64,000 bases of DNA from Membranipora membranacea. Taxonomy: Eukaryota; Bryozoa; Gymnolaemata; Cheilostomatida; Membraniporidae. The position numbers and the translations under genes are program-made. Each line of letters starts with the position of its first letter. Positions within the stretch are counted from its first letter, which is position 1. Below the pieces are notes generated by a model. That model searched no databases, was not told where the DNA came from, and saw only the letters and a list, made by a program, of their open reading frames with translations. Positions 2,785-64,000 of the stretch are shown piece by piece. Location: positions 9,736,001 through 9,800,000 of the forward strand of contig OU612067.1 in the NCBI GenBank assembly GCA_914767715.1. The letters are read 5' to 3'.

Positions 2785-2876
2785 CTAATCTTTGAGTATT
2801 TTTCCTGGCAGTGACAAGCAAAACTTGTGGTTGAGTTCCACAAGGAGATGATAAACACAAAGGTAAAAAGCTGAAC
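2785..2876 (-). CDS. Terminal exon, post-caspase tail
   Basis: The acceptor is TTTCCCCAG and the reading frame continues from the preceding phase-1 exon. It encodes 30 residues (GSAFYLCVYHLLVELNHKF and onward) and stops at TAG. It lies beyond the caspase fold and I recognise no domain. It is supported by exact phase agreement and a good acceptor rather than by homology. Confidence 0.65.
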
Positions 2877-5800
2877 CTGGGGAAATTAAAATATTGCATA
2901 CTCTTGTGAGCACCCAATTACTCATACTCACTACCCTTTGAGCAGTCATTACGGATTCTCATCTTACCAATTCCGCAACCAAGAGCTTCGTTTGTCAACC
3001 TCCATATGTTGTGATGATTCCTCAGATGTTATCAGACGCTATTTTAATTTTTATCGAAAAATCATGTAGTAGGCAATACTTGATGAGAACTTAATGAACC
3101 ACTCACCGTGCTTTCGTTCAATTATGGTACCAGTTGGATCTGGCAGAAGAGGATTTCTCAGAACATTAGGGTGATCTGTTCTCATATCTATACCAGGTTG
3201 TAGGTAGAGCTTCAACGACAGAAAAGTACACCTAGTCTGAGGCATCGAGGCCACATGAGATGTCACAGTATTTCTTCTGTAGGTGCGGAGAAGTTCTTCT
3301 GTTCTCTGTACACCTGTCGAGGCAACAATCTGCCTGATCTGAAACAATCAATTTCAGAGACATATAAACTCACTATCTTTCTCCATTGACATACATTTAC
3401 GTTTAGTGGTCTTATGATTGACGGTTTGATGTCTTTAGGGTTCAGGTTCTATTCAAGGGGCTGGCACTCATTATTGATTTGATACTTAAACACTATTCAT
3501 GCTTCATGGATCCCAGTACCTTTACTCAAGATTTTAATGTTCTGGCTATTTTTTGTGTGTTCTCGGTCAGTAAGTTCAAAAACACACCCTGCAGTGAAAT
3601 AACTAATTCTGGCGGATGTCGCTTATCAGGCAGTTAAATGATTACATAAAAAGAAATAGAATGTAGCTAACAACTTACTACTGCTGCTAGTTCTTCCATG
3701 TGAAGTAGGTGTGCATACTTATAGAAGACAGTGACCAGTGCTCTGATAAATGGTGAGCCTTTGCTTGGCCGTCTAGGTGAGGCAAATGCTGAAAAAAAGA
3801 TAAGCGTCAAAATGAACAGCCTCATATACTAGGTTAAACAATCTAACAAGTCCATATATAGGAAATTATGCAGGATTCTGAACTGAAGAGTCAAAAGCAA
3901 TAAAGTATGAGTTTATCTTCAATGCATGTTGCTCAAGGTGTTTGAGCTTCTTATGCTGACAAAGGCATAACAACAATTCTGTCAACATTGACGCTGAGTG
4001 AAACGGCAAACTGGCTTTAAATTATCAAAGCAAGGATCAAAGTAATGATCTTTTTAAGTCTGGGAATCTGGTAATTTGGTTTCTGTTACAAAGGAAAAGA
4101 ATGAGGTAACTGTAAATTGCTGAACAGGCTGAACGGACTGAACAGCTGGACAGAATTTCTCAAACTTAATTATTATTTGTATTCTTTTCTCTGACTGACT
4201 ATCACTTCTCAAACACATTCCTCCTAACTAAATGATTTAATGAGACAATAAGTTCCTGTTGGCACCTAATATAACCAATTTAGGCCAAGCAAATGAAGTT
4301 GTCAATTTGCCAATTCTGACAAAATCTGATGGTGTTCAGAATACCAGAACCATTATCCAGCTCAAATAGCCAGTCTTGACAAGCATTGTTGTAGGGGAAG
4401 GGGGGGGGCTGGGGGTTCCTCCCTTACGAAGACAAGCTACTTTCCATCCATTCACTAATGTAATGCCAAAAGATTTACTGTGAATAAAATGGGAAGAAAC
4501 CAAGGCAAATCCAAACTTAAAATGAATAAATTAATGAGCATAATATAAGGAATTGTCCACGCTTATGCAAAATTAGCCAATCATGTAAAGAATCAAACAA
4601 ATAGTAGTCTGAGAAATTCTGTTCAGCTGTTCAGTAATTTACAGTTACCAAAAATAATGAATGGTTTGAGAGATCCAACAGTCCCAATGAGGCATGCAGG
4701 ATGAAAACTTGAGACAAGGTAATTGATTACTTCACTCATGTCACGGTGGCTTGGAGAAAATTTGTTCCCTAATTGGGTTATGAAATTTATTGTCTCAGCA
4801 GCTTACATTCAAAACTAGACTGCATGATAATGAAGTCAGCAGTAGATATATCTTCTGGAGAAATATCATCAAAGTCATCATCAGCATCAGCTACAGGGGG
4901 CAGCTGGTTAGCATTTCCTTGGGGTGGATTCTGGTTGACTGCAGGCTCACGAGGAATGTTAGTGAGCATCATTTCTCTATTACCTTAAACATAGAAGTTA
5001 AACCATGACCTCTATGGAGACGCTCTGGTGAGGATACTCATTTCGCTGGAGCCATCAAACACTTGAAACTCATCAGAAAAAATGAGTTCATAGAGTCAGT
5101 AGAACTTATTATTTCTGGTATTTGATATCTAGAACTGCCTTTTATGAGTAGAATTTTGACTCGGCTGTTGTTGAAGGGCTGGCAACATTGCACGCAATCT
5201 TTAATGAACTTTTGACACCATCCCGAATACCCAGATTCTTCATGTTTGTTGGATTGAAACAGAAACAACTACTTACTACCAGAACAGGCTTGTATGATGA
5301 CTATCTTTGGTTTCCCCTTCATGGCAGGGAAGTTTTTAGGAGAGAGCAAATTGATCAAGTCCATGATCTTGATATATTTATGATCAGATCCGACCACAGA
5401 CCCTTCATGGCCATGACTGGTAATGACTAACACAAAGGACTTCAGCTCCTCATGGACAGAATCTCCCGTATCTTCGTTGACCAGATGCGTTTCTTTGTGG
5501 ATCTCAGCGACCATGTCCTAGGTTGATGAAAAAACAGCATTGATATAGTCTATTTCAGATAGGTCTAACACTCAGAAAGGGCTGACAGGTTAAAGAACTA
5601 TTCAAAACTTGTTCATGGAGCATGGAGCAGAAAGCGGTTCAAGAATTTATCTAAGTCGAGTTTCAAATCCAGCATAGAGCCTGTTCACTGTAAAAAGATA
5701 TGTTGACTCTCTTCTGTTCAATGGCAATTTAATCTGGTGGGTGATCCTGCCCATTCATTTGGAATAACGAGTATAACAGTCTCACATGTGCATGGAAGTT

Positions 5801-8800
5801 CCTGTGTGCTCCTACAGTGATAAACCCAAGTTTGTCCAGCATCCGTTTCATGTTAGCGTAGTCATGCTCTGAGCCTTGTCTCGTGCCATTGCAAGAGTTT
5901 GATAAGATAAGAGCTCTCCCGCGTGTCTCAGATATGTCGTATATCTGCTACAACATGCATTCAATAATAAACGTTCATCAAGCTATTAGGTAATTCAAAT
6001 TTGGCATGGACAGCGCAATTCACTCAAAGCTAAAACTTTCACAACTAGTTTCACACACCTGATCATTCTGGATGCGTACACCAAGTTCAGGCTCTAGATC
6101 AATCAGTGCATTTCCAGAGTTCACAATAGCCACAATGTCATCCAGTTGTGCTTGTTCTAGAGCAGCTGGGTTTCTCTCAATAGGGGCAGCGCCCCGAGCA
6201 CGATCATTCGGAGGTGAAGTTGCCTGTGATGAGGGGGCTGCAGCTACAAAAGGTGAAAGTTCTATTAAATCATGGTAAAAAGCTGTAACGCGTTACGCAA
6301 TTGATTTATTCACACCATGCAAGGTTGAACTAGCTAGGTCACATATTTAGGACTAGATACTACAGACCATACAGTAAAATGTGCATACAGTGTAATAATA
6401 TAGTAATGGGTTTTGGGTAGAAGATATGCCAGTACCACTTCATCATGATAAGCACACTACTCACATTGTGCATTCCTTTGTTGAATACCGAGTATGTACG
6501 TATCCAAAGCTTGGATTCCGTCGTTAGTGATACTGCCACCTTTGAAATTAAATAAAAAAGAGAGCAATAAATGAACTAACTCCATATCTCAGTTTTTTCA
6601 AAATAGGTTTTCTAAATCAATGAAATGGCACAAATTGCTATCCCAAAAATCGGAGATAAAAGGCTTGAAGCCATATGCCAGGAACGTTTTCAGTTCGGCA
6701 TGGAACGCCTGCGGAGGGAGGATCAATGGCATCTTCACATTTGTGGGCCTGGGACTCCCCACTAATAGCCAAAATTTGAGGTTGAGAACAAATATGTGTG
6801 CTCCAGTTGATTGAAGAATGTATGCAGAGCATTGTACTCACATGGATGAAAAAGGGGTAGTGGTACAGTCAGCAAGTCGTGAGCTGGTTGCCCCTTAGTA
6901 CATCTGCATGCCTCTTCACCAGTGTATACCAATGTGGACCCTACTCCCCAGTCTGGGTCAACTTTTATGGTTGGTTCCCACTGCTCGGTTAGCAGACAAT
7001 GTGAACAATAGAAGACTGTCTCGAAGTGCACACCTTTCCAGCGAAGCATAAGTTCTGATATAAGATGCTGCCAATCGGACAGCAAACTTTTCCAGGTTTT
7101 GGCAATGCTTTTCGATTTGGTCAATGCCTGAATTGTTATAATTCTCTCAGTATGGCTGTGGAATAGGTATTTAACAGTTCCATCATTGTTGGAGACACAA
7201 GCCCCATTTCTACCAGCATCAATACGGTTCAGCTCTGTCATGTTGCGATTTGCATAGATTGCAGTGAGCAGGTGGTACAGGTAGATTGGAAATGGCAGTC
7301 CAGTGAAGCAAATTTCTACCTTCATTGGAATCAAGTTGCCTGTCTCAGCAACAGTGATCAGTCGCTTGCTGAAGTAGGGAAGTATGTAGTGATGCTCATT
7401 TTCCTCACGGATTGGTCCACACACTAGATGGAAGACTTTAAGTACTTCTATGGAAATCTCAGGGTCCAAAGCGGATTCGTGTTCAATCAGGTTTGAGAGT
7501 AGAATAGAGTTCATCATCCCGGTTTCCTGGAAGTTGTGTACCATCTCTTGATATTTTCTTTTCTGAATTCCCCTACCATTGTGGTTGAATGGCACAAAGG
7601 CTTCTAAACGCTGTACCCACGATTCCTGTGCGGAATGATTGAAGAGTACCTGAACTAGTCCTGTGAGCAGTTCGATGCGGTGAAATACTATGTGAGCAAG
7701 TTTGTCCCTGTTCCTGTACCATATGATTTTTCCAATGTCATGAAGATACTGGAGGATGAATCGCTCTTTGTCCCCAGGAAACATCTCATCTATTTGTTCC
7801 AAGGTCAGAAAAGGTATTTCCTTTAGAATTTCTGTTTCGCATAGTTCCATCAGCTCGTACCAGCACTCAGGGATTTCTGTGAGAAGTGACAGACCAATCT
7901 TGTGGAGTGCAGCTTTGAGTTGGCGTATGTCATGCCTTGCACTGTCCTTATGAAACAGCATGGGCTTGTATTTTGTCAGGAGAGGCTGAGAGGTAGCAGA
8001 AAAACTTTTCATTGAGAAGAATGGACTAGAGTTTGGTGCCATAGCCAGTTCCTCTTTTCTTATCTTTGAACGCAAACTCTCGGTACCCTGAATTACATCA
8101 GTTTGCCTTTTTTCGAGAAGTTCAGGATTCTCGAATTTATCACAATGGGTTAGAACCAAAAGCGGGGAGTCTGCTTGAGGACAGGAGAGGTATAAGTGAG
8201 AAAGCCAGTCGAGGCATAGTTTCTCACAGGCAGCCTCTACTCCACTCTCAACAACAAGTTCATCAAACTTTGCAATGTCAATGACAAGCAGAGGTACGAA
8301 CTTTGACCGACAGGAAAGCTGATAACCAAACTGATATATCACCTGACCCCCAAAGTCATGAAATACCAGCCTTGATTTATCATCGACATCAGCCTCATGC
8401 ACTATGAATATTTTGGTAGCCTCATCTAGCTTGCTCACGGTTGATCGATAGGTCAGAACTCGTCTATCATGTTGCATAGACTTGACAAGACTAGTCTTCC
8501 CAGCCAAAGTCTCACCAATGACAGTCACAGGAATAAACTTCTTTGCAGTACCCTCTTCAAAATCTGTCAAGTATTTTTGTATCGCTTCTATCCCTTGTTC
8601 ACACACAGCGTTCGGAGGGAAAGTCAATGCGTCACACTCCTTGATCTGTAGAGTTTCCAGCTTAGAAAGTTTGTTGATGCCAACCGGAAGCCTGGTTAGT
8701 TCACGATTTCTACTGATATCTAGCACCTCCAAACTTGACAAACCTGAAACACTGCAAATGAAGTTACCTTACAGGGCGATGGTCAAATTGTGAGAAGCCA

Positions 8801-11800
8801 TATGACAAGTGGGAGTTGTTTAGAAATAACCAAGATAGTTCACATACATTTCTTCTTGGGATGGATGTTTAGCTATGTTTGAAAACTTTTGAGTAACTAG
8901 CTTGCTTTGCAAGAACCCATTACATAAGAATGTCAGGTTCATTCCACCTTCCACTACTTTAATCCTAACACATTGTAGACACAATCATACAAGTAGATGA
9001 TAAAAGAAAAATTACCTTTCAGGCAGCATAAGGAGTTGGCATCCTGATACATTGAGCTGCTTGAGACTTTTTAGTTCTGCAATGCTCTCATGTAATGTTC
9101 CCAGTTTCGGATTGTCAGCTAAATTCATCTTCTCTAGATTGGAAAGTGCCCCAATGCTGCAAAAAATTGATTCACTGGCTTAACATTGAGAGATAACCAT
9201 TGTGAAGTAAAGAAGAGTTTTGTCATTTCAGCTGCCATACGTACATGTAAATTGATCCAGATCTTTCGATCGATCAAATATGTGAGTTGAGTATTTATCT
9301 TATGTGGGGGGAAGTTAGTGGCATGAGACTGCACTCTCCAGAGAACAGGTGATTGACAACCCTAGTGCTCAAAGACCCCGGGACAATTTTGATTATTGCT
9401 GATAGAACACATCCTTGATGTTAGAAGGATGAGTAGCTCTGTCAATGGGTTTTGTGATTATGAGAGTTGTCTGAGTTTGAGATGTGTATGCTTTTTGAGA
9501 GTTGTTGGTTGAAGTTGATTTTGAGTTTTGTGGTGCGGGTAGGGAGAAACCAGGGTAAATCCCTTGAGACGAGAGCGGGATTGAACTCGGGACCTCCCGC
9601 ATTATGGCAAAGGATGTGATCATTTTCAACATCACAGCTTATGTCAAAAGTAGATCTGCTCTTTTTCTAATTCTCTCTTCTTTTTCATAAACATGGTATT
9701 CTAAGTACTTTTTAAAAAAAATTGAACTAGTGCCTTTTATTTGTAATCCTGATCTCCATTCAATACATATTCATGTTCAAGCTTCAAAGCTATGATTAAA
9801 ATCAAATATCAGTTTTTGCTCATTGGTTTATGGTTTCAGGTTAACCCCTTAGGTTAGGTCTCACCACCAGACCCATCCTGCAGCCGAATGCTCTAGCGCC
9901 CCTCCCGCACCCTCCCCGTGTGCCACGGGCTTGCTACCCTAAATCACTGCCAAGCCGTCTATGACCCCAACATTAGTTGGGTGCCCTGGGCATCAATGTT
10001 ACATATCACAACCAGACACCATAACCATTTATAACCAAGAAGTCATTTCACCTCTCCAATATTACATGCATTTTGTGTCGAGCTTCCGATCACTCATCCC
10101 TAATTTTCGACTGCATACATACTAAAATGTGTCATCTCCGGGATTTGAAGCAGTAGCCTATTTGTAAAAAGCAACGCACAGACCTATTGCACTATGAAAC
10201 CCTTTCACTTCATGCTTTGAAAATAGAATGTTAATTAGTTTGATGAGGAGTGCTGATACCACCACATAATAGAATACATAGCCTATATTCTAGACAGACA
10301 TGTTTCGGGGAGATTATGACATAAAAATGATCATGAGTGCACAAATTTAAAACTGAAGATGGGCAGCTGGAGAGGATAAACAATGTATCAAACAACTATC
10401 TCAGATGTTCCTTTCACACATAACAAAACCTGCTGGTTATAACATCTGTTAGGTCTTTCGGTAGTCTTTAAGAGACATTGTACAATAGTAGATAACTCCA
10501 TTCATTCAACCTTTACAGTTCCCATGAGTAAATAGAAGTGGTAGCTTATTGGGCAAGTACAGCACTAGGCATAAAAACCGCATAGATTAGGAGGGGGACA
10601 ATTTCTAACACTATTCGTAATTTTTCCTCTGAGGTGCTATTCCAGTGTTAAAATTTTGCACAACTACTGCATAACTAGTTGCCAGATTATATGTTGCTTT
10701 GTCTTTCTGAAGCCTTTTACCCAAGCAGAAAAACATCCAACACTTTATTACGGTGCATGAGCCCACGACTTCTGATGTACAGAGCTGATACGTTATAATT
10801 AGCACTATAGGGACAAATATCGACAGAGGTAATGTCAGTTGGAGCAATATATGAAAGCTTAAAACTTGTTGCAGCAGAGAGAAACAAGATGCGAATTCAG
10901 ACCTCACTTAGGTTTTCAGTATCATTATATCTACCGACAATAAAAAATACAAGATTTAAACAACAATATTTTGCATACCTGGGTGGCAATTCAGAGAGAC
11001 TGGAACCTGCCAAATCAAGCACTTTGAGACTCCTCAGCTCTTTGATCCAGTCGGGTAATGTACAGAGACCCTCATTGAAGGAAATCTTCAGTTTCTCCAG
11101 GCGGTGTAGTGATCCAATGCTGTAATAGAATCATTCATAGTAACAATGTACAAACAAATGGGAAACACTTTGAGCCTGCTTCATACAGCAAGATACCGAA
11201 AAGTCTTGTGTTGGCTTCACTAGAGGCAAAAAGACGATTCAATTTAAATCAAAACCTAGCCTAATTAGTGAGAGTAATTTGGTTATGAGTAATTCATTTG
11301 AGAGCCTTCCCTGATGTTGAGGATATTTAGAGCACAGGCTAAGATAGTCCAGTATCTCCAAAATATTCATTTACCTAGATATGAGATTGCTAGGCTAAGC
11401 GATAACATTATTATCTCATTAATGTACCTGTTAGGCAATCCAGTGAGGCCACATTCAGATATATGAAGTGCCTTGAGGCTCTTGAGTTCACCTATACAAT
11501 CTGGTAAGGTGTGCAGGCTCTTATTGGCGGACAGATCCAGTGTCTCCAGGCAGGACAGTACTCCAATGCTGTAAAGATAAGATAAGATTTAATTGAAACT
11601 CTCGTAGAAACCATGGGGGTTATAATGGAGTAGTTGTTAAATGAATAAAAGGAGAAATTTCAAAAATGTATTGTGACACAAAAACTACATTGCAAATTTG
11701 ACAAAAAAAGCTGTTGGCATACTTGGCGGTACGGCACTTAGGTACACAGCTCTGTCGATTGCTGCGCAGTGTTCGTGTGGAGCTGTTACGTTTGATTATA

Positions 11801-14800
11801 CTGTTTAGAGGATGTTTCTCATCCCTAAAAATCTTCTGCCTTTTTTTATTATTATTTCAACAGAAAGGAAAATCCTTATGAACAATTATGACCACATTTT
11901 GAGTCAAGAGAACATGTTTCATTTTGAGATATTTTATTCAATTATTATTAGTGGGTATTTGTCCAACACTCCTGAAGTGGTATTAGGTTACCTTTAATGC
12001 ATGTATGAGTCCTTTTCACCATTTTTCCAGAGAATATCACTCTTTTATTTCATGAAATATTGGTTTCTATATCTATGATCTCTCTCCAAGGCCAAAACAG
12101 CTTACAACTTTGCAGCTGATTCACGGAAACCCTCCAAAGGCACAAGGACCTGAAGACTAATTTTATATTCTAAGGTTTAGGAGGGAGTTTTCTTTTGTCG
12201 CACAAATGTTTCAGTTTCAATGGAAGTTTTGTCCTTGACTGGATGAGAAATCAATCTAGCCTGTGGGCTCCTCCCATAAATTAACAAAGTATGAGCCTGC
12301 AAACAACCGTTTCACAGAGTCAAAATTTGTGGTGAATTGTTTTGGAATAGATGCAATTGGAGTCATCCAATCAAATGAAGATGATTATTGAGAACAAAAG
12401 GACTCCTGTGAAAAACAGATTGTTTGTTCGAAATTGTTCTCCATTTGAGAGCCATACCTGCCTTCCCTGATGTTGAGGATATTTAGAGCACAGGCTAAGA
12501 TAGTCCAGTATCTCCATATTATTCATTTACCTAGATATGAGGTTGATAGGCTAAGCGATAACATTTATTATCTCATTAATGTACCTGTTAGGCAATCCAG
12601 TGAGGCCACAATGAGATATATTAAGTCCCTTGAGGTTCTTGAGTTCACCTATCCAATCTGGTAAGGTGTGCAGGCTCTCATTAAGAATTTATTGAAACTC
12701 TCGTAGAAACAATGGGGTTTATAATGGAGTAGTTGTTAAATGAATAACAGGAGAAATTTCAAAAATGTATTGTGACACAAAAACTACATTGCATATTTGA
12801 CAAAAAAAGCTGTTGGCATACTTGGCGGTAAAGCACTTAGGTACACAGCTCTGTCGATTGTTGCGCAGTGTTCGTGTGGAGCTGTTACGTTTGATTATAC
12901 TGTTTAGAGGATGTTTCTCATCCCTAAAAATCTTCTGCCTTTTTTTACTATTATTTCAACAGAAAGGAAAATCCTTATGAACAATTTTGACCACATTTTG
13001 AGTCAAGAGAACATGTTTCATTTTGAGATCTTTTATTTAATTATTATTAGTGGGTATTTGTCCAACACTCCTGAAGTGGTATTAGGTTGCCTTTAATGCA
13101 TGGAAGAGTCCTTCTCACCATTTTCCCAGAGAATATCACCCTTTTATTTCCTGAAATGTTTGTTTCTATATCTATGATCTCTCTCCAAGGCCAAAACAGC
13201 TTACAACTTTGCAGCTGATTCAGGGAAACCCTCCAAAGGCAAAAGGACCTGAAGACTAATTTTATATTCTAAGGTTTAGGAGGGACTTTTGTTTTGTCGC
13301 ACAATTGTGTCAGTTTCAATGGAAAGTTTTGTCCTTGACTGGATGAGAAATCAATCTAGCCTGTGGGCTCATCCCATAAATTAACAAAATATGAGCCTGC
13401 CAACAACCGTTTCACAAAGTCAAAATTCGTGGTGAATTGTTTTGGAATAGATGCAATTGGAGTCATCCAATCAAATGAAGATCATTATTGAGAACAAAAT
13501 GACTCCTGTGAAAAACAGATTGTTTGTTCGAAATTGTTCTCCATTTGAGAGCCATATATACCTGCCTTCCCTGATGTTGAGGATATTTAGAGCACAGGCT
13601 AAGAAAGTTCAGTATCTCCATATTATTCGTTTACCTAGATATGAGATTGATAGGCTAAGCGATAACATTATTATCTCATTAATGTACCTGTTAGGCAATC
13701 CAGTGAGGCCACATCCACATATATCAAGTTCCTTGAGGTTCTTGAGTTCACCTATCCAATCTGGTAATGTGTGCAGGCTCATATTCGCTCTCAGATTCAG
13801 CGTCTCCAGGCAGGACAGTGATCCAATGCTGTAAAGATAAGATAAGATTTTATTGAAACTCGTAGAAACCATGGGGTATATAATGGAGTAGTTGTTAAAT
13901 GAAAAAAAGGAGAAATTTCAAAAATGTATTGTGACACAAAAACTACATTGCATATTTGACAAAAAAAAGCTGTTGGCATACTTGGCGGTACAGCACTTAG
14001 GTACACAGCTCTGTCGATTGTTGCGCAGTGTTCGTGTGGAGCTGTTACGTTTGATTATACTGTTTAGAGGATGTTTCTCATCCCTAAAAAGCTTCTGCCT
14101 TTTTTTACTATTATTTCAACAGAAAGGTAAATCCTTATGAACAATTTTGACCACATTTTGAGTCAAGAGAACAAGTTTCATTTTGAGATCTTTTATTTAA
14201 TTATTGTTAGTGGGTATTTGTCCAACACTCCTGAAGTGGTATTAGGTTGCCTTTAATGCATGTAAGAGTCCTTCTCGCCATTTTTCCAGAGAATATCACT
14301 CTTTTATTCATGAAATGTTGGTTTCTATATCTATCTCTCTCCAAGGCCAAAACAGCTTACAACTTTGCAGCTGATTCACGGAAACCCTCCAAAGGCACAA
14401 GGACCTGAAGACTAATTTTATATTCTAAGGTTTAGGAGGGAGTTTTGTTTTGTCGCACAAATGTTTCAGTTTCAATGGAAGGTTTGTCCTTGACTGGATG
14501 AGAAATCAATCTAGCCTGTGGGCTCATCCCATAAATTAACAAAATATGAGCCATAATATTGGAAACGACCGTTTCACAGAGTCAAAATTTGTGGTGAATT
14601 GTTTTGGAATAGATGCAATCGGAGTCATCCAATCAAATGAAGATGATTATTGAGAACAAAATGACTCCTGTGAAAAACAGATTGTTTGTTCGAAATTGTT
14701 CTCCATTTGAGAGCCATACCTGCCTTCCCTGATGTTGAGGATATTTAGAGCACAGGCTAAGATAGTCCAGTATCTCCATATTATTCATTTACCTAGATAT

Positions 14801-17800
14801 GAGATTGATAGGCTAAGCGATAACATTTATTATCTCATTAATGTACCTGTTAGGCAATCCAGTGAGGCCACAATGAGATATATTAAGTTCCTTGAGGTTC
14901 TTGAGTTCACCTATCCAATCTGGTAAGGTGTGCAGGCTCTCATTCCCTCTCAGATTCAGCGTCTCCAGGCAGGACAGTGATAGTATGCTGTAAAGATAAG
15001 ATAAGAATTTATTGAAACTCTCGTAGAAACCATGGGGTATATAATGGAGTAGTTGTTAAATGAAAAAAAGGAGAAATTTCAAAAATGTATTGTGACACAA
15101 AAACTACATTGCATATTTGACAAAAAAAGCTGTTGGCATACTTGGCGGTACAGCACTTAGGTACACAGCTCTGTCGATTGTTGCGCAGTGTTCATGTGGA
15201 GCTGTTACGTTTGATTATACTGTTTAGAGGATGTTTCTCATCCCTAAAAATCTTCTGCCTTTTTTGATTATTTTTTCAACAGAAAGGAAAATCCTTATGA
15301 ACAATTTTGACCACATTTTGAGTCAAGAGAACATGTTTCAATTTGAGATATTTTATTTAATTATTATTAGTGGGTATTTGTCCAACACTCCTAAAGTGGT
15401 ATTAGGTTGCCTTTAATGCATGGAAGAGTCCTTCTCACCATTTTTCCAGAGAATATCACTCTTTTATTTCATGAAATGCTGGTTTCTATATCTATGATCT
15501 CTCTCCAAGGCCAAAACAGCTTACAACATTGCAGCTGATTCAGGGAAACCCTCTAAAGGCACAAGGACCTGAAGACTAATTTTATATTCTAAGGTTTAGG
15601 AGGGAGATTTGTTTCGTCGCACAAATGTTTCAGTTTCAATGGAAGTTTTGTCCTTGACTGGATGAGAAATCAAACTAGCCTGTAGGCTCATCCCATAAAT
15701 TAACAAAATATGAGCCTGCAAACAACCGTTTCACAGAGTCAAAATTTGTGGTGAATTGTTTTGGAATAGATGCAATTGGAGTCATCCAATCAAATGAAGA
15801 TGATTATTGAGAACAAAATGACTCCTGTGAAAAACATAATGTTTGTTCGAAATTGTTCTCCATTTGAGAGCCATACCTGCCTTCCCTGATGTTGAGAATA
15901 TTTAGAGCACAGGCTAAGATAGTCCAGTATCTCCAAATTATTCATTTACCTAGATATGAGATTGATAGGCTAAGCGATAACATTATTATCTCATTAATGT
16001 ACCTGTTAGGCAATCCAGTGAGGCCACATTCAGATATATGAAGTGCCTTGAGGCTCTTGAGTTCACCTATACAATCTGGTAAGGTGTGCAGGCTCTCATT
16101 GCTGTACAGGTTCAGTATCTTCAGGCAGGACAGTGATCGTATGCTGTAAAGATAAGATAAGAATTTATTGAAACTCTCGTAGAAACAATGGGGTTTATAA
16201 TGGAGTAGTTGTTAAATGAAAAAAAGGAGAAATTTCAAAAATGTATTGTGACACAAAAACTACATTGCATATTTGACAAAAAAAGCTGTTGGCATACTTG
16301 GCGGTACAGCACTTAGGTACACAGCTCTGTCGATTGTTGCGCAGTGTTCATGTGGAGCTGTTACGTTTGATTATACTGTTTAGAGGATGTTTCTCATCCC
16401 TAAAAATCTTCTGCCTTTTTTGATTATTTTTTCAACAGAAAGGAAAATCCTTACGAACAATTTTGACCACATTTTGAGTCAAGAGAACATGTTTCAATTT
16501 GAGATATTTTATTTAATTATTATTAGTGGGTATTTGTCCAACACTCCTGAAGTGGTATTAGGTTGCCTTTAATGCATGTAAGAGTCCTTCTCGCCATTTT
16601 TCCAGAGAATATCACTCTTTTATTCATGAAATGTTGGTTTCTATATCTATCTCTCTCCAAGACCAAAACAGCTTACAACTTTGCAGCTGATTCACGGAAA
16701 CCCTCCAAAGGCACAAGGACCTGAAGACTAATTTTATATTCTAAGGTTTAGGAGGGAGTTTTGTTTTGTCGCACAAATGTTTCAGTTTCAATGGAAGGTT
16801 TGTCCTTGACTGGATGAGAAATCAATCTAGCCTGTGGGCTCATGCCATAAATTAACAAAATATGAGCCATAATATTGGAAACGACCGTTTCACAGAGTCA
16901 AAATTTGTGGTGAATTGTTTTGGAATAGATGCAATCGGAGTCATCCAATCAAATGAAGATGATTATTGAGAACAAAATGACTCCTGTGAAAAACAGATTG
17001 TTTGTTCGAAATTGTTCTCCATTTGAGAGCCATACCTGCCTTCCCTGATGTTGAGGATATTTAGAGCACAGGCTAAGATAGTCCAGTATCTCCATATTAT
17101 TCATTTACCTAGATATGAGATTGATAGGCTGAGCGATAACATTTATTATCTCATTAATGTACCTGTTAGGCAATCCAGTGAGGCCACAATGAGATATATT
17201 AAGTTCCTTGAGGTTCTTGAGTTCACCTATCCAATCTGGTAAGGTGTGCAGGCTCTCATTCCCTCTCAGATTCAGCGTCTCCAGGCAGGACAGTGATCGT
17301 ATGCTGTAAAGATAAGATAAGAATTTATTGAAACTCTCGTAGAAACCATGGGGTATATAATGGAGTAGTTGTTAAATGAAAAAAAGGAGAAATTTCAAAA
17401 ATGTATTGTGACACAAAAACTACATTGCATATTTGACAAAAAAAGCTGTTGGCATACTTGGCGGTACAGCACTTAGGTACACAGCTCTGTCGATTGTTGC
17501 GCAGTGTTCATGTGGAGCTGTTATGTTTGATTATACTGTTTAGAGGATGTTTCTCATCCCTAAAAATCTTCTGCCTTTTTTGATTATTATTTCAACAGAA
17601 AGGAAAATCCTTATGAACAATTTTGACCACATTTTGAGTCAAGAGAACATGTTTCATTTTGAGATATTTTATTTAATTATTATTAGTGGGTATTTGTCCA
17701 ACACTCCTGAAGTGGTATTAGGTTGCCTTTAATGCATGGAAGAGTCCTTCTCACCATTTTTCCAGAGAATATCACCCTTTTATTTCATGAAATGTTAGTT

Positions 17801-20800
17801 TCTATATCTTGATCTCTCTCCAAGGCCAAAACAGCTTACAACTTTGCAGCTGATTCAGGGAAGCCCTCCAAAGGCACAAGGACCTGAAGACTAATTTTAT
17901 ATTCTAAGGTTTAGGAGGGAGTTTTGTTTTGTCGCAGAAATGTTTCAGTTTCAATGGAAGTTTTGTCCTTGATAGGATGAGAAATCAATCTAGCCTGTGG
18001 GCGCTCATCCCATAAATTAACAAAATATGAGCCTGCAAACAACCGTTTCACAGAGTTAAAATTCGTGGTGAAATGTTTTGGAATAGATGCAATTGGAGTC
18101 ATCCAATCAAATGAAGATGATTATTGAGAACAAAATGACTCCTGTGAAAAACAGATTGTTTGTTCGAAATTGTTCTCCATTTGAGAGCAATACCTGCCTT
18201 CCCTGATGTTGAGGATATTTAGAGCACAGGCTAAGATAGTCCAGTATCTCCAAATTATTCATTTACCTAGATATGAGATTGATAGGCTAAGCGATAACAT
18301 TATTATCTCAATAATGTACCTGTTAGGCAATCCAGTGAGGCCACAATGAGATATATCAAGTCCCTTGAGGCTCTTGAGTTCACCTATACAATCTGGTAAG
18401 GTGTGCAGGCTCTTATTCCCGCCCAGATCCAGCTTCTCCAGGCAGGACAGTGATCCAATGCTGTAAAGATAAGATAAGATTTTATTGAAACTCTCGTAGA
18501 AACCATGGGGTATATAATAGAGTAGTTGTTAAATGAATAAAAGGAGAAATTTCAAAAATGTATTGTGACACAAAAACTACATTGCATATTTGACAAAAAA
18601 AGCTGTTGGCATACTTGGCGGTACAGCACTTAGGTACACAGCTCTGTCGATTGTTGCGCAGTGTTCGTGTGGAGCTGTTACGTTTGATTATACTGTTTAG
18701 AGGATGTTTCTCATCCCTAAAAATCCTCTGCCTTTTTTTATTATTATTTCAACAGAAAGGAAAATCCTTATGAACAATTTTGACCACATTTTGAGTCAAG
18801 AGAACATGTTTCATTTTGAGATATTTTATTCAATTATTATTAGTGGGTATTTGTCCAACACTCCTGAAGTGGTATTAAGTTACCTTTAATGCATGGAAGA
18901 GTCCTTCTCACCATTTTTCCAGAGAATATCACCCTTTTATTTCATGAAATGTTGGTTTCTATATCTATGATCTCTCTCCAAGGCCAAAACAGCTTACAAC
19001 TTTGCAGCTGATTCAGGGACAAAGGCACAAGGACCTGAAGACTAATTTTATATTCTAAGGTTTAGGAGGGAGTTTTGTTTTGTCGCACAAATGTTTCAGT
19101 TTCAATGGAAGTTTTGTCCTTGACTGGATGAGAAATAAATCTAGCCTGTGGGCTCATCCCATAAATTAACAAAATATGAGCCTGCCAACAACCGTTTCAC
19201 AGAGTCAAAATTCGTGGTGAATTGTTTTGGAATAGATGCAATTGGAGTCATCCAATCAAATGAAGATGATTATTGAGAACAAATTGACTCCTGTAAAAAA
19301 CAGATTGTTTGTTCGAAATTGTTCTCCATTTGAGAGCCATACCTGCCTTCCCTGATGTTGAGGATATTTAGAGCACAGGCTAAGATAGTCCAGTATCTCC
19401 ATTTTATTCATCTACCTAGATTTGAGATTGATAGGCTAAGCGATAACATTATTATCTCATTAATGTACCTGTTAGGCAATCCAGTGAGGCCACAATGAGA
19501 TATATCAAGTCCCTTGAGGCTCTTGAGTTCACCTATACAATCTGGTAAGGTGTGCAGGCTCTTATTCCCGCCCAGATCCAGCTTCTCCAGGCAGGACAGT
19601 GATCCAATGCTGTAAAGATAAGATAAGATTTTATTGAAACTCTCGTAGAAACCATGGGGTATATAATAGAGTAGTTGTTAAATGAATAAAAGGAGAAATT
19701 TCAAAAATGTATTGTGACACAAAAACTACATTGCATATTTGACAAAAAAAGCTGTTGGCATACTTGGCGGTACGGCACTTAGGTACACAACTCTGTCGAT
19801 TGTTACGCAGTGTTCGTGTGGAGCTGTTACGTTTGATTATACTGTTTAGAGGATGTTTCTCATCCCTAAAAATCCTCTGCCTTTTTTTATTATTATTTCA
19901 ACAGAAAGGAAAATCCTTATGAACAATTTTGACCACATTTTGAGTCAAGAGAACATGTTTCATTTTGAGATATTTTATTCAATTATTATTAGTGGGTATT
20001 TGTCCAACACTCCTGAAGTGGTATTAAGTTACCTTTAATGCATGGAAGGGTCCTTCTCACCATTTTTCCAGAGAATATCACCCTTTTATTTCATGAAATG
20101 TTGGTTTCTATATCTATGATCTCTCTCCAAGGCCAAAACAGCTTACAACTTTGCAGCTGATTCAGGGACAAAGGCACAAGGACCTGAAGACTAATTTTAT
20201 ATTCTAAGGTTTAGGAGGGAGTTTTGTTTTGTCGCACAAATGTTTCAGTTTCAATGGAAGTTTTGTCCTTGACTGGATGAGAAATCAATCTAGCCTGTGG
20301 GCTCATCCCATAAATTAACAAAATATGAGCCTGCCAACAACCGTTTCACAGAGTCAAAATTCGTGGTGAATTGTTTTGGAATAGATGCAATTGGAGTCAT
20401 CCAATCAAATGAAGATGATTATTGAGAACAAATTGACTCCTGTAAAAAACAGATTGTTTGTTCGAAATTGTTCTCCATTTGAGAGCCATACCTGCCTTCC
20501 CTGATGTTGAGGATATTTAGAGCACAGGCTAAGATAGTCCAGTATCTCCATTTTATTCATCTACCTAGATTTGAGATTGATAGGCTAAGCGATAACATTA
20601 TTATCTCATTAATGTACCTGTTAGGCAATCCAGTGAGGCCACAATGAGATATATTAAGTTCCTTGAGGCTCTTGAGTTCACCTATACAATCTGGTAAGGT
20701 GTGCAGCCTCTTATTCCTTCTCCGATTCAGCGCCTCATATATGGACTGGGAGTGTATTCTGTGAATTAAGATAAGATTATATTGAAACTCTCGTAGAAAC

Positions 20801-26800: not shown

Positions 26801-28218
26801 TATATATACCTCTCAGGCAGCACTGGAATCCCAGTATCTAACACTTCCAGGCTCTTAAGACTTTTTAACTTCCTCATCTCGTCGGGAAGAGAACAGAGGT
26901 TAGGACTCTCATCTATGGAAAGCTGCTCTAAACAGTTTAGTGATGTTATGCTGAAATAAACGGTAAGGTATAGATGTATATTAAGTATAATAATTGTTTG
27001 GATAGAACGAGAATAAATGGTTTAAAGAAATATATTTTAATAATGAAAATTGTGTTGCCTCATCTTTTGCTGTAAAGTCCGAAGGGTAAACATTTTAATT
27101 ACAGGTGATGAAACTGTAATTTCACAAGCCGATGACTTTTCAAGAAAAGCTATAAGGTTGAGTAGAAATAGACATGTATGGAACTGCAAACCTCTCTAAT
27201 TGTCCCTCGTGTTCTATATCTCTTAGCACAAGCTCTTTAAGTCCAGGAGCTATCTGGTTTAGTGGTGGAATATCTCCCGATATCGACATATGTGTCACGC
27301 TGTGACCTTCCATAGCTGATAGTAACTCATCCAGCCTAAGAGTCTTGTAGATAGGAATGTCAGGTATCCTGTCAATATCTGGCTGGCTGTCATCCCGGTA
27401 CCATACTTTATAAACTGTCAACACAACAACATAGTTAGTAACATATCTATATTTGATTCGATCAAGCTGATTTTACATTATCATGAAATGGGATGTGTGG
27501 GATGGTGAGAGACGGGAACACCAGCTGTCATAGTACGAGCAGTCAGTGGTCCATAATATGAAGCTTAGGGCAAGAACCATGAGGATTATGTCTCCAAACA
27601 CAAATTTGATACGTCCACCATTCAGTACGTTCCTCCAAAAAGAAGAACGCTTCAAGTGAGCCATAATTACTTGCCTAACCTGAAAACATGTTTTTTTCCT
27701 GCTCTAAACATTCTATACACCAAATATGCATGAATTCACATCTAGGAAACTCGGTCCACTGGGCGATCTTTTCTAAAGCTGGAGACAGCAAATGCATTAT
27801 ACATGTTGTCAAATGATATCTTCGATGCCATGAAAGAATGATAAACATAATTCTGAGTAAGAGGCTGAACAATTGATTTGTGCTCCAAATGGTTGCTTCG
27901 ACGTCGCTATATTGGTGTTTAGCCTTAGCATGATTCCATTTTACTACTTTTATTTCCTATGCCAAGCAACTTAATAGAAGAATATAAGAAAATAAATGTC
28001 AGATATGTTTATGTAAATCTCACCTTTCTGGTAACCAGAAGGTTCGCCTGAGCCTGCAGCTTGACCTCCATTATTTCTTTTGGTGTCTTTTTTTTGAGGA
28101 AAGGCTTGTAGAGGATCCATATCTAATGGGATGGACCTGCAGTGGAATGTCACTTCTCCAGCATAACAGGTTATAGGACTTCGTACTGTGTCAGAGGGAC
28201 ATAACAGTAGGCCTCGAT
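2785..28218 (-). CDS. LRR-Roc-COR-caspase fusion gene (5' end unresolved)
   Basis: Exons in transcript order: 28218-28024, 27414-27192, 26950-26810, twelve array LRR exons (25460-25320 down to 11568-11428), 11119-10979, 9156-9016, 8751-6842, 6539-6465, 6243-6059, 5944-5786, 5517-5277, 4983-4807, 3788-3679, 3338-3107 and 2876-2785 (TAG stop). All boundaries are GT-AG and every codon phase agrees across junctions, giving about 1,900 residues if all intact exons are used. Order of parts: unknown N-terminal region, about 32 LRRs, Roc GTPase, COR, linker, caspase p20, Asp-rich linker, p10, short tail. Closest known animal architecture is the MFHAS1-type Roco protein (LRR-Roc-COR); a caspase on its C-terminus is not an arrangement I know. 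No signal peptide or membrane helix is evident in the joined exons, so it is probably cytosolic. The first listed exon begins in phase 1, so at least one more 5' exon exists. Confidence 0.88.
3107..3338 (-). CDS. Caspase p10 exon, C-terminal half
   Basis: This 232-bp exon (phase 0 to 1) contains the typical end of the caspase small subunit: a helix IRQIVASTG, then MPQTRCTFLSLKLYLQPG, which matches the family pattern of a '..KLYFYPG' end strand. About 30 further residues follow the fold. Donor CACG|GTGAGT. Confidence 0.88.
3679..3788 (-). CDS. Caspase p10 exon with substrate-binding loop
   Basis: The 110-bp exon encodes FASPRRPSKGSPFIRALVTV, corresponding to the family's '..S.R....GSWFIQ.L..' segment that lines the S1 pocket. 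It continues with FYKYAHLLHMEELAAV, matching the amphipathic helix that follows. The acceptor has an eight-T tract before CAG, and the donor is GTA|GTAAGT. Confidence 0.92.
4104..4649. mobile_element. Inverted-repeat element in the p10 intron
   Basis: Inverted copies of a sequence starting GGTAACTGTAAATT and containing CTGAACAG and ACAGAATTTCTCA lie at about 4104-4165 and 4600-4649. They bracket roughly 430 bp without coding potential. The left arm has extra GCTGAACGGACTGAAC-like repetition. It looks like a non-autonomous TIR element (MITE). Confidence 0.6.
4807..4983 (-). CDS. Caspase inter-subunit linker and first p10 strand
   Basis: The 177-bp exon (phase 1 to 1) starts just after the QACSGS active-site segment. 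It encodes a Pro/Asn/Gln-rich stretch, then an acidic run (VADADDDFDDISPEDISTAD) and the first p10 strand FIIMQSSFE, which matches the family's 'DFL.aySt..' strand. The cluster of Asp residues is where caspases are normally cut into large and small subunits, so autoprocessing is plausible. Confidence 0.88.
5277..5517 (-). CDS. Caspase p20 exon with catalytic His and Cys
   Basis: Both catalytic residues are present: the His in LVITSHGHEG (family pattern SHG) and the Cys in KIVIIQACSG (family pattern QACxG). The QACxG form marks a true metazoan caspase; metacaspases and paracaspases carry different contexts. The 241-bp exon starts in phase 0 and ends GGT A|GTAAGT in phase 1. Confidence 0.95.
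5786..5944 (-). CDS. Caspase p20 exon, N-terminal strand and R-x-G motif
   Basis: The 159-bp phase 0-0 exon encodes ETRGRALILSN, then GTRQGSEHDYANMKRMLDKL, then GF. This matches the beginning of the p20 subunit, including the Arg of the 'R.G(T/S)..D' motif that helps form the S1 pocket. Confidence 0.93.
6059..6243 (-). CDS. COR-to-caspase linker exon
   Basis: The 185-bp exon encodes an Ala/Pro/Ser-rich start (AAPSSQATSPPNDRARGAAP) and then a helix-like segment that leads into p20 (PAALEQAQLDDIVAIVNSGN). I cannot assign the helix-like part to a CARD, DED or death domain by eye. It could be a short adaptor helix or part of a degenerate death fold. Confidence 0.75.
6465..6539 (-). CDS. Short linker exon after COR
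   Basis: The 75-bp exon encodes GSITNDGIQALDTYILGI and a few more residues. It has no recognised domain. It joins the COR exon (phase 1) to the next linker in frame without an intervening exon. Confidence 0.75.
6842..8751 (-). CDS. Roc GTPase and COR domain exon
   Basis: This 1,910-bp exon starts with two last LRRs (LEVLDISRNRELTRLP and LETLQIKECDALTFPP). The Roc domain shows a P-loop VIGETLAGKTSL, a switch-II motif HDFGGQV (DxxG) and a G4 motif THCDKF. The COR domain follows, with the characteristic FILQYLHDIGKIIWY segment and helical bundle. In Roco proteins Roc binds GTP and COR mediates dimerisation. The exon ends CCA T|GTGAGT and continues into the caspase linker. The continuous open frame and intact motifs argue for a functional gene, not a pseudogene. 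Confidence 0.94.
9016..9156 (-). CDS. LRR exon, diverged, next to Roc-COR
   Basis: It is 141 bp in phase 2-2 like the array exons but diverged in sequence (LEKMNLADNPKLGTL and LKQLNVSGCQLLMLPES). Its flanking introns are not related to the array introns, so it probably represents an older duplicate. Donor AAAG|GTAATT. Confidence 0.9.
9564..9620 (-). mobile_element. tRNA-like SINE remnant
   Basis: On the minus strand a B-box-like GAGTTCAATCCCGCTC sits in GGGAGGTCCC context, typical of the T-arm of a tRNA-derived SINE. No convincing A box or element end is visible, so the limits are only approximate. Confidence 0.45.
9845..9990. other. GC-rich patch in an LRR intron
   Basis: About 145 bp is much richer in G and C than its surroundings (contains CGCCCCTCCCGCACCCTCCC). 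It has no open frame of note. Its composition suggests a repeat-derived insert, but no partner copy is seen in the window. Confidence 0.35.
10131..10205 (-). mobile_element. tRNA-like SINE head
   Basis: On the minus strand it reads an A-box-like TAGTGCAATAGGTCTGTGCG and a B-box-like GCTTCAAATCCCGG at tRNA spacing. It belongs to a different family from the SINE at 2244-2494. The rest of the element is not delimited. Confidence 0.5.
10979..11119 (-). CDS. LRR exon, diverged, at the 3' end of the array
   Basis: 141 bp, phase 2-2, encoding two LRRs (LEKLKISFNEGLCTLP and LKVLDLAGSSLSELPPS). The exon is related to the array cassettes, but its introns are not. It marks the 3' boundary of the homogenised array. 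Confidence 0.92.
11428..11568 (-). CDS. LRR cassette, 3'-most array copy
   Basis: 141 bp, phase 2-2. Variable cores are TLDLSANKSL in the first LRR and ALHISECGL in the second. The second core is shared with the cassette at 16003-16143. Intact acceptor (TTTACAG) and donor (CAG|GTACAT). Confidence 0.92.
12585..12682 (-). pseudogene. Broken LRR cassette (acceptor half deleted)
   Basis: The second LRR (LNISHCGL) and the donor are intact. The first LRR, the acceptor and the adjoining intron end are missing: sequence jumps from the first-LRR codons directly into intron sequence (AAGAATTTATTG). About 55 bp is lost compared with the other units, matching the 1103-bp spacing. Without an acceptor the copy should be skipped, and the phase 2-2 design keeps the frame when it is. 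Confidence 0.88.
13688..13828 (-). CDS. LRR cassette
   Basis: 141 bp, phase 2-2. Variable cores are TLNLRANMSL and ELDICGCGL; it is the only cassette with Cys-Gly at the hypervariable second-LRR site. Intact splice sites. Confidence 0.92.
14847..14987 (-). CDS. LRR cassette
   Basis: 141 bp, phase 2-2. Variable cores are TLNLRGNESL and ELNISHCGL. The exon and the neighbouring intron (with the private motif ATAATATTGGAAACGACC at about 14552) match the cassette two units away at 17163-17303, apart from a first-LRR IL versus IR difference. Confidence 0.92.
16003..16143 (-). CDS. LRR cassette
   Basis: 141 bp, phase 2-2. Variable cores are ILNLYSNESL and ALHISECGL. The first LRR and upstream intron variants match the far cassette at 24164-24304 rather than its neighbours. 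Confidence 0.92.
17163..17303 (-). CDS. LRR cassette
   Basis: 141 bp, phase 2-2. Variable cores are TLNLRGNESL and ELNISHCGL, the same as the cassette at 14847-14987. Intact splice sites. Confidence 0.92.
18320..18460 (-). CDS. LRR cassette
   Basis: 141 bp, phase 2-2. Variable cores are KLDLGGNKSL and GLDISHCGL. The predicted protein is the same as that of the adjacent copy at 19469-19609, consistent with a very recent duplication. Confidence 0.92.
19469..19609 (-). CDS. LRR cassette
   Basis: 141 bp, phase 2-2. Its protein sequence matches the cassette at 18320-18460. Its unit shares a small intron deletion with the next unit (19014 and 20165). Confidence 0.92.
20618..20758 (-). CDS. LRR cassette with aberrant first repeat
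   Basis: The length stays exactly 141 bp and an AG acceptor remains. About 30 bases at the acceptor end (20735-20765) are unrelated to all other copies. They replace the conserved IGSLSCLE start with IHSQSIYE, and the first LRR core becomes ALNRRRNKRL, losing a consensus Leu. The second LRR (ELNISHCGL) is normal. It may be a decaying cassette or a patch copied from elsewhere. Confidence 0.75.
21774..21914 (-). CDS. LRR cassette
   Basis: 141 bp, phase 2-2. Variable cores are TLNLGWNMGL and ELDISYCGL, ending LPD before the shared Ser codon. Intact splice sites. Confidence 0.92.
22653..22793 (-). CDS. LRR cassette
   Basis: 141 bp, phase 2-2. Variable cores are TLNLRRNMSL and ALDITNCDL, the most divergent second LRR of the array. 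The intron on its 3' side carries a deletion of about 270 bp near 22585, explaining the 879-bp spacing. Confidence 0.92.
23159..23519. mobile_element. MITE inserted in one LRR unit
   Basis: A 361-bp block absent from all sister units begins GGGGCTCTCC and ends GGAGCCCC (imperfect terminal inverted repeats). It is flanked by a 6-bp duplication AATTAT (23153-23158 and 23520-23525), which occurs once in the empty units. It has no coding capacity. Confidence 0.88.
24164..24304 (-). CDS. LRR cassette
   Basis: 141 bp, phase 2-2. Variable cores are ILNLYSNESL and ELNISLCGL, with QTLPEC replacing the usual HTLPD. The first LRR is the same as in 16003-16143. Confidence 0.92.
25320..25460 (-). CDS. 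LRR cassette, 5'-most array copy
   Basis: 141 bp, phase 2-2. Variable cores are SLSLIGNGNL and ELDISLCGL. The upstream intron keeps array homology only to about 25580, with a short local duplication of ATTAGAAACCATGGGGTTTA near 25500-25530. Confidence 0.92.
26810..26950 (-). CDS. LRR exon, diverged, at the 5' side of the array
   Basis: 141 bp, phase 2-2. It encodes LEQLSIDESPNLCSLP and LEVLDTGIPVLPES. It is related in design to the array exons but its introns are unrelated. The donor opens a (TA)n tract. Confidence 0.9.
27192..27414 (-). CDS. N-terminal exon leading into the LRRs
   Basis: The 223-bp exon (phase 1 to 2) encodes YKVWYRDDSQPDIDRIPDIP, a segment HSVTHMSISGDIPPL and the LRR-like GLKELVLRDIEHEGQLE. 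It looks like an N-terminal cap or a degenerate first repeat of the LRR solenoid. The frame joins both neighbours exactly. Confidence 0.8.
28024..28218 (-). CDS. N-terminal exon of unknown function
   Basis: The 195-bp exon (phase 1 to 1) has a good acceptor (TGACTTCAG) and donor (AAAG|GTGAGA). It encodes LLLCPSDTVRSPITCYAGEV and then a polar, low-complexity Lys/Gly/Ser-rich linker. No domain is recognised. The preceding exon that must supply the start of its first codon was not identified. Confidence 0.65.
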
Positions 28219-32464: not shown

Positions 32465-33660
32465 TTAGTCATCATCATCATCATAGCAGTCTGTCGATTC
32501 GGCAATGACTCTCTTCATTTCGGTCTGATCGAACATCTCCAGTCTCTATTTCTAGCATTCTTTTGCCAATTTGCTCTGTCGACGTCCAGCTTCTTCATAT
32601 TCCTCTTCACAGTATCTTTGAACCTTAACCTGGGCCTCCCTTGATTACATCTTCCCTCCTTCAGCGGGGAGTAGAGTAGTTGTCGAGGTAGGCGGTTATG
32701 GTCCATCCTTTCTACACGGCCAAGCCATCTTAGATTCATCTGAATGAGTATGGACTTTAGGGACGTTAACCCTGCTCTCTTTAATACCCTAACATTCGTG
32801 ATCTTGTCTCTCCATGAGATACTCATGATTGATCGTAGATGTCTCATCACATACGCTTGCAGCCGGTCAGTCTGCACACTGAATACAGTCCAAGTCTCAG
32901 CACCATAAGGCAGCTAGCACAGTAGCCCTATACACTTGACACTTAACTTTGAATGAGACATGGCGGTCGTTCCAGAGTCTTTCGCGCAAGTTTCCATACA
33001 CTGCACTAGCATTTCCTATTCTCAGGGAGATTTCATTATCTAGCTTTAAATTGTCAGCTACAGTGCTTCCAAGGTACTTGAAAGCTTTACATTGTTCCAA
33101 CGGCTCTTCATTGATATTTACATTGCTTGGTAAAGACACTTCGCTCAGGAACTTAGGGGGTTTATAGAGGCACTCAGTCTTCTTAATGTTGATTTTGAGA
33201 CTAAACATCCTTGCAGCATCAGCAAATCTGTCAACTAGAGTTTGGATGTCATCAGAGTCATGAGCTACCAGAGCGCTATCATCAGCAAATAGCAGATCTC
33301 TCACTAACTTTGTAGTTGTTATGTTTCGAGGTTTGAAGTGAGCTACATTAAACAGGTCTGCTTCTTTCCTAGTCTGGATATATACTCCTTCCGAGCTGTC
33401 TTTGAAGGCTACTTCAAGCATGGCTGAGAGGTACAAGGAGAAGAGTGTTGGGCAAGCACACACCCTTGCTTTACTCCATTGCTTACTGCAAAGTCACTAG
33501 AGTCGGATCCGCTCATAGCAACATTCGCTTGCATGCCTGTATGGCGAGCCTCGATAATGCTGATGAACTTGGCTGTGCAACCAAATTTTTGAAGAACCTG
33601 CCAAAGGCCCACTCTGGACACAGTGTCGAAGGCCTTACTGAAGTCAACAGTCTGTCTAGG
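32465..33660 (-). mobile_element. LINE 3' half (reverse transcriptase, degenerate)
   Basis: On the minus strand it encodes the RT from the VDFSKAFDTVSR motif onward, GVKQGCVL, the catalytic LLFADDSALV box and an RT C-terminus (LRWLGRVERMDHNRLP, GRPRLRFKD). It is broken by frame changes at about 33410-33460 and 32880-32900. It ends in a (GAT)n tail at about 32468-32482, as in RTE-like LINEs. The beginning of this half fits the end of the oppositely oriented half at 33660-35740. Confidence 0.88.
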
Positions 33661-35740: not shown

Positions 35741-36420
35741 GTAAGATCGTTTTAATCAGCAATTTACTTAGATTATCTCAGAATACCTTGCGAAGGTTAG
35801 AACAGAAGTGCATGGTATACATGAATATGAATAACACCCAAGAGCTAAGACATATTTGAGGTACTTAGTTCAATCCATCACTCGTGTGGTGTGAGATGTG
35901 TGGCAGGACTTGCTGTACGGGACATGTCGTGCAGCACTCATGTGGCTCCTACAGCACAAACAACAATGCTTCATAGGCTTTGAGTGCTGTAAGACATGTC
36001 GAGTCCCATACAGCGGTTCACACAATTGTCTTGCAACCATTGCAAAATTTTTTCAGTTCTGAATGGGCACTAAAAACCGTCCCTAACGACGGGTGTTGTA
36101 AGACATGTGGCAGGTGCTGTGTGGGACATGCCATCCAGCGCTCAAGGCCTCTACAGCATTGTTATTAAATACAATACAGCATTGTTTATACATCTATTGT
36201 TAAAAAGACATTGTTTTTGAGTATTGTTAGACATATCCCATACAGCACCTGCCACACATCTCAGAACACCAAAGTGTCGGATTGGATTAAGTACCTTAAA
36301 CATATCTTAGCTCTTGGGTGTTGTTCATATTCATATTCATGTATACCATGCACATCTGTTCTAACCTTCACGAAGTATTCTGAGATAATCTGAGTAAATT
36401 GCTGATTAAAACGATCCTAC
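35741..36420. mobile_element. Non-autonomous DNA element with about 180-bp TIRs
   Basis: The left end GTAAGATCGTTTTAATCAGC and the complement of the right end GTAGGATCGTTTTAATCAGC match, and homology continues for about 180 bp on each side. The 680-bp interior is non-coding and has repeated GACATGTC/CTGTAAGACATGT motifs. No clear target duplication is visible. Its left end coincides with the truncation point of the LINE fragment. Confidence 0.88.
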
Positions 36421-63880: not shown

Positions 63881-64000
63881 GCACGTTGAGCCATGCCCGT
63901 TGGGGCACGTTGAGCCATGCTTGTTGGGGCACGTTGAGCCATGCTTGTTGGGGCACGTTGAGCCATGCTTGTTGGGGCACGTTGAGCCATGCTTGTTGGG
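63881..64000. repeat. 24-bp tandem repeat running off the window edge
   Basis: Five copies of GCACGTTGAGCCATGCTTGT plus TGGG; the first copy has a CC variant. Being 24 bp, the unit keeps any frame open, and the minus strand reads a PQQAWLNV octapeptide. Its total extent is unknown. Confidence 0.93.

Follow-up and report, generated by a model that had tools for sequence, protein, structure and literature searches.

Can a single animal protein carry a ligand sensor, a Roco-type nucleotide switch and the protease that the switch might control? The question is raised by a locus on chromosome 3 of the bryozoan Membranipora membranacea (assembly tzMemMemb1.1), where a window of 64,000 nt (positions 9,736,001 to 9,800,000) was analysed; the gene lies on its minus strand. 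In animals, caspases are as a rule brought in by adaptor domains, and an earlier note on this DNA had proposed that a Roc-COR exon instead continues in frame into a caspase between window positions 8751 and 2785. The fusion is confirmed: the nine 3' exons (8751-6842, 6539-6465, 6243-6059, 5944-5786, 5517-5277, 4983-4807, 3788-3679, 3338-3107 and 2876-2785) have GT-AG borders and matching phases, and join without an internal stop into a tail of 1059 amino acids. The gene model extends further upstream, to position 28120, with 15 intact leucine-rich repeat (LRR) exons (141 nt, phase 2) and two N-terminal exons ahead of position 8751. The resulting gene model has 26 exons and 1871 codons for amino acids, from an ATG at 28120 to a TAG at 2785, of which the start codon and the last exon in particular are predictions. 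Nor is this a lone fusion, being one of dozens in the genome and having a relative, P0022, in a second cheilostome bryozoan, Watersipora subatra. Chance is excluded because the Watersipora protein is colinear, paralogs share the same splice positions and the ratio of non-synonymous to synonymous substitution rates (dN/dS) is low. It is probable, in our view, that one gene encodes a single-chain protein (N-terminal cap, LRR sensor, Roc-COR switch, linker and caspase) of a large bryozoan Roco-caspase family, acting as a proximity-activated death or inflammatory receptor; of this, computation shows the gene structure, domains, intact motifs, recurrence and selection. The features of the gene, in window coordinates, are:

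28024..28120, minus strand: exon 1, the predicted in-frame ATG and 32 codons, with a GT donor
27192..27414, minus strand: exon 2, N-terminal cap ahead of the LRRs, phase-matched, resembling the N-terminus of P0022
11428..26950, minus strand: LRR exons 3-15, thirteen 141-nt phase-2 exons, mostly in ~1.15-kb tandem units (Pfam LRR_8, 1.1e-75)
12585..12725, minus strand: broken LRR exon copy with acceptor and 5' half lost, excluded from the model
10979..11119, minus strand: LRR exon 16, intact, in the model
9016..9156, minus strand: LRR exon 17, intact, in the model
6842..8751, minus strand: exon 18, last LRR, Roc GTPase and COR in a single exon (G1 GETLAGKT, G3 DFGGQ, G4 THCD)
6465..6539, minus strand: exon 19, linker, phase-matched; the donor before it is kept in 18/18 paralogs with alignment reaching there
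6059..6243, minus strand: exon 20, linker, phase-matched
5786..5944, minus strand: exon 21, start of caspase p20 with the pocket Arg (RQGSEHD)
5277..5517, minus strand: exon 22, p20 with catalytic His (SHG) and Cys (QACSG); acceptor kept in 18/18 copies, 17 of them Roc-linked
4807..4983, minus strand: exon 23, Asp-rich intersubunit linker, a candidate self-cleavage region
3679..3788, minus strand: exon 24, start of p10 (SPRRPSKGSPFI)
3107..3338, minus strand: exon 25, remaining p10 (KLYLQPG) and a tail of ~30 amino acids with similar sequence in paralogs
2785..2876, minus strand: exon 26, predicted last exon with the TAG stop, phase-matched, the least certain exon

No Pfam domain matched residues 1-106. 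At the other end, the tail of ~30 residues that paralogs share after p10 backs the tail of exon 25, not exon 26.

The Roc GTPase sits at the edge of Pfam detection, scoring 27.2 bits against a cut-off of 27 when the open frame of exon 18 is taken alone, and 26.1, below the cut-off, inside the joined tail. Its nucleotide-binding motifs G1, G3 and G4 are nevertheless present, G1 is printed in 16/16 long paralog stretches, and 16 of the 18 members of a Roc-COR alignment (A1) match Roc at E 0.01. A profile of this alignment, used in place of one from alignment A2 whose PDB matches were dominated by LRRs, matched the Roc domains of CtRoco and Roco2 in the PDB without reaching COR. As COR follows Roc in the window protein, it belongs to the Roco family, and the Roc-COR fold is supported. 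Neither NACHT nor NB-ARC was matched by Pfam in residues 1-886 or the 1059-residue tail, and the same regions gave no CARD, DED or death prodomain at E 0.1; the predicted nucleotide switch is Roc-COR rather than NACHT or NB-ARC.

Pfam matches a complete caspase domain (PF00656, 5.3e-30, profile positions 1-228 of 233). Its SHG and QACSG motifs align with the catalytic His and Cys of caspase-1. The pocket for the P1 Asp of a caspase substrate is formed by an Arg in p20, the Gln before AC and an Arg in p10, and all three positions are kept (RQG, QAC and SPRR, aligned with caspase-1). The description of the caspase as catalytically intact holds for the completeness of the domain and for the His, Cys and pocket motifs, but not for one p10 position, a Trp replaced by Pro. 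The label of executioner is not supported: the best scores were with caspase-1, then caspase-9 and CED-3; the caspase of P0022 scored best with CED-3, then caspase-6.

Recurrence was assessed in 339,339,785 bases on 18 contigs, as against the published 339,374,674 in 21 scaffolds (PMC10290214), so that a few small pieces are missing. The genome holds at least 145 caspase matches (140 of 515 candidates scored). Roc-COR lay upstream on the same strand in 16 of 20 hand-picked ten-kb stretches across clusters (not in L018, L021, L023 or L027), in three of eight search-returned loci with flanks of only 1.5 kb, and in all six of a random draw of caspase hits, taken from 111 of the 145 after exclusion of the 20 hand-picked hits and a further 14 (the window's own hit, L001 and hits lying close to listed ones). 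Conversely, of 69 Roc-COR matches listed (69 of 467 candidates scored), 68 lack an internal stop and 38, among them the window's, are followed on the same strand by a caspase match at a distance of 0.9-3.0 kb. The other 31 have no listed caspase, nor one on the opposite strand within 8 kb. Five of these were fetched by hand (L035-L039), and in all five a divergent SHG/THG...QAC domain follows closely; the three that were scanned all score above Pfam's threshold for C14 (43-60 bits), while the other 26 of the 69 carry no caspase assignment. L035-L039 form a divergent caspase subfamily behind Roc-COR, in which QACQ replaces QAC[SA]G.

At least 57 loci therefore have Roc-COR followed by a caspase on one strand (38, these five, and 14 further fetched places not among the 69), and 30 of them besides the window were read as sequence. 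Among 19 Roc-linked loci, SHG or THG is kept in 18 (GHG in L028) and QAC[SA]G in 18 (QSC in L010). The Roc-COR match is broken or interrupted in three fetched copies, L025 and L032 being in pieces and L020 containing a stop. At two further places in the genome (G000 C1:30534585-30536486 and C3:14198720-14200612), Roc-COR lies in open frames of 1634 and 1705 amino acids, perhaps with LRR and Roc-COR in one exon.

The Watersipora relative P0022 (1386 amino acids) bears the NCBI-predicted name 'MFHAS1-like', which is silent on the caspase, yet its cap, LRRs, Roc-COR, linker and caspase follow the order seen in the window protein. The cap is 30% identical over 76 aligned positions (41.6 bits), and the main stretch, LRRs through p10, 31% over 1338. 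Its caspase matches Pfam C14 at 8.3e-38 and, like that of the window, has QACSG and lacks the p10 Trp. It differs in Roc-COR, where identity is 33%, in having no counterpart of the last ~50 residues, and in clustering with L003 and L024 rather than with the window gene in the caspase tree (support 85). Another Watersipora protein, P0023, spans Roc-COR and stops where p20 begins. Watersipora emerged from a full-length query that included the Roc-COR region; searching proteins with just the caspase part of the 1059-residue tail gave no matches, nor did viral or bacterial/archaeal contigs yield relatives when scanned. The Roc-COR exon itself has close relatives (P0001-P0017, 42-57%) on short contigs; a PC motif, PLxYPC, stands at the end of COR in 13 of the 17, not in P0006 and P0008, and P0009 and P0012 are cut short.

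Within Membranipora, the donor that closes the COR exon keeps its position and its phase in 18/18 copies with alignment reaching there (T/GT context), and the p20 acceptor is likewise conserved in 18/18 copies, 17 of them Roc-linked. Between close copies, dN/dS has a median of 0.18 and a maximum of 0.28 in the caspase (17 pairs), and a median of 0.31 and a maximum of 0.83 in Roc-COR (seven pairs). Roc-COR and caspase distances are correlated (r 0.82, 20 units, L003 left out, 0/5000 permutations), which fits joint duplication of the two halves. In the caspase tree, whose alignment was anchored on the window sequence, with L010 and L018 left out and no match from L008, the Roco-linked copies, L021 and Watersipora stand apart from the genome's other caspases, CED-3 and caspase-1. 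One pair, L011 and L031, is 95% identical over 2082 bp of the Roc-COR exon and its flanks and 77-79% in the caspase exons; such mosaic paralogs probably arose by gene conversion or exchange of halves.

Most LRR exons of the window gene lie in an intragenic tandem array (11304-25600) of twelve near-copies of a ~1.15-kb unit. Median divergence among its introns is 3.5-4.3% (means 9.8-15.9%), with many stretches 95-98% alike and some near 70%. Proportions of non-synonymous (pN) and synonymous (pS) differences among the exons are 0.113 and 0.084, with an odd copy at 20618 left out. The excess of pN is not significant over all codons (bootstrap 0.15) and marginal at ten predicted concave positions (0.048). 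These ten predicted ligand-face positions of 47 codons hold 72% of the non-synonymous differences (0/20000 permutations), in a test that was not blind, the positions having been picked from the LRR consensus after the variability was seen; synonymous differences are also higher there (0.225 vs 0.052).

No description of an animal LRR-Roc-COR-caspase was found in searches limited to open-licence PMC papers, but passages of a study of bacterial LRR-AP-GTPase-COR proteins (PMC8195603) describe the same order of LRR, Roc-type GTPase, COR and C-terminal effector, caspase being one of 24 or more domains that occupy the C-terminus. The bacterial effector varies widely, whereas the bryozoan genes are an animal family with a caspase even in the five copies fetched for lacking a listed match. 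MFHAS1-type proteins share the LRR-Roc-COR core and, according to passages of a Roco review (PMC6337361), end after COR, in agreement with the earlier note; the window protein differs by its complete caspase. Excerpts on sea anemone NG1 (LRR-Roc-COR-TIR; PMC5094078) and on TIR-Roco proteins of Aplysia (PMC9334734) provide cases of a Roco switch with an immune effector in a marine animal, that effector being TIR rather than caspase. In amphioxus, LRRs-caspase and TNFR-caspase hybrids join a sensor directly to a caspase with QACxG; the words 'roco', 'gtpase' and 'roc domain' are absent from the text of that paper (PMC2575513), though a Roc-COR could have been overlooked. Brown algal LRR-ROCO genes, as excerpted (PMC11378527), are proposed immune receptors with tandem phase-2 LRR exons like those of the window, but their exons are of 72 bp with one LRR each (141 nt and two LRRs in the window) and no caspase follows. 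Figure legends name CARD and TIR along with Roc-COR for Trichoplax proteins (PMC4104024), and both COR and CASc among the NLR-related domains of Dysidea avara (PMC12909245).

We infer location, ligand sensing, nucleotide control, proteolysis and outcome along the following lines. The protein is probably cytoplasmic. The LRRs most likely would keep it off and sense a ligand; Roc-COR, on changing its nucleotide state, would alter self-association. Caspase domains brought together in this way would be activated by proximity, possibly with self-cutting in the Asp-rich linker, and would lead to cell death or an inflammatory cut. The earlier note had envisaged a single chain of sensor, switch and protease with dimerisation driven by GTP. 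Architecture, recurrence and selection bear out the single chain, but not the GTP-driven dimerisation: in passages of the Roco review (PMC6337361), the proposed model has GTP-bound monomers, with CtRoco dimerising via the C-terminal part of COR, so GTP may act in the opposite direction.

Several points weigh against the receptor reading. Gene and protein are predictions from the DNA. A Trp ahead of the p10 Arg is usual in caspases and present in caspase-1 and CED-3, whereas Pro precedes this Arg in the window; substrate choice or activity may differ accordingly from those of other caspases. The Trp is absent from all 15 printed p10 motifs (14 Roc-linked loci and L021) and from P0022, and present in the unlinked caspase L001. 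The linker between COR and caspase shows no significant similarity between the window and Watersipora. The pairs compared for dN/dS are not independent of one another, and one of them, L009/L010, reaches 0.83 in Roc-COR. Support for the grouping of Roco-linked caspases is weak (67), and within that group sits L021, a Roco-type caspase with no Roc-COR match in ~7.7 kb upstream. Finally, the link between nucleotide state and dimerisation in Roco proteins is described as debated in passages of the review (PMC6337361).

Among the alternatives, one gene with two products, in which alternative 3' ends give a caspase-less form (stop near 6762) beside the full form, is unlikely, though it draws on the unspliced COR exon staying open for 25 further codons. 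These codons have no counterpart in relatives, which diverge from each other past the PC motif. It is rather improbable that the family serves self/non-self recognition between colonies instead of defence against pathogens. The animal is colonial, and the many copies, mosaic paralogs and variable LRRs would suit such a role, but a cytoplasmic LRR sensor equally fits pathogen sensing. We give still less credence to a caspase half that acts as a scaffold or decoy without proteolysis, with signalling via Roc-COR; the lost p10 Trp and the divergent part of the family (the QACQ form, QSC in L010, GHG in L028) point that way, against which stand the 18/19 conservation of both catalytic motifs and the caspase median dN/dS of 0.18. 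Very improbable indeed are two adjacent genes, LRR-Roc-COR and caspase, joined in the model only: the COR exon is readable on to a stop at 6762-6764, but no Met follows that exon until residue 1567, which comes after the pocket Arg, and the caspase exons alone therefore cannot start a whole caspase; AATAAA and ATTAAA are absent from the 302-bp intron after the COR exon, the donor is kept in 18/18 testable paralogs and the joined protein is predicted in Watersipora too.

The dozens of relatives with this build suggest a little-known kind of animal defence receptor that may trigger its own executioner. Bryozoan immunity is, to our knowledge, little studied, and we propose only tentatively that in bryozoans NLR inflammasomes have been replaced, or supplemented, by 'Roco-inflammasomes', a large and rapidly changing family of single-chain proteins in which LRR exon cassettes would provide variable recognition, Roc-COR the switch and the caspase the executor, with exchange between paralogs, for microbial defence or colony self-recognition. 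If the receptor reading is true, an animal immune expansion would be built like the bacterial LRR-GTPase-effector proteins. Protease activity would also become a read-out for the effect of nucleotide cycling in an LRRK2/MFHAS1-type switch, a debated question for LRRK2.

Over the 64-kb window as a whole, Rfam gave nothing at gathering score, no tRNA turned up, and a scan for bacterial-type promoters and terminators, a type unsuited to an animal, gave no excess over shuffles. By eye, pieces like long interspersed nuclear element (LINE) retrotransposons lie on both strands at 32518-35741, including endonuclease and reverse transcriptase frames, an exon like the regulatory subunit of protein kinase A at 50448-50732 (plus strand), and exons like a short-chain dehydrogenase of the 3-beta-hydroxysteroid dehydrogenase type at 58436-61360 (minus strand). 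Tandem arrays occupy 37979-38341 (19-bp unit) and 63880-64000 (24-bp unit).

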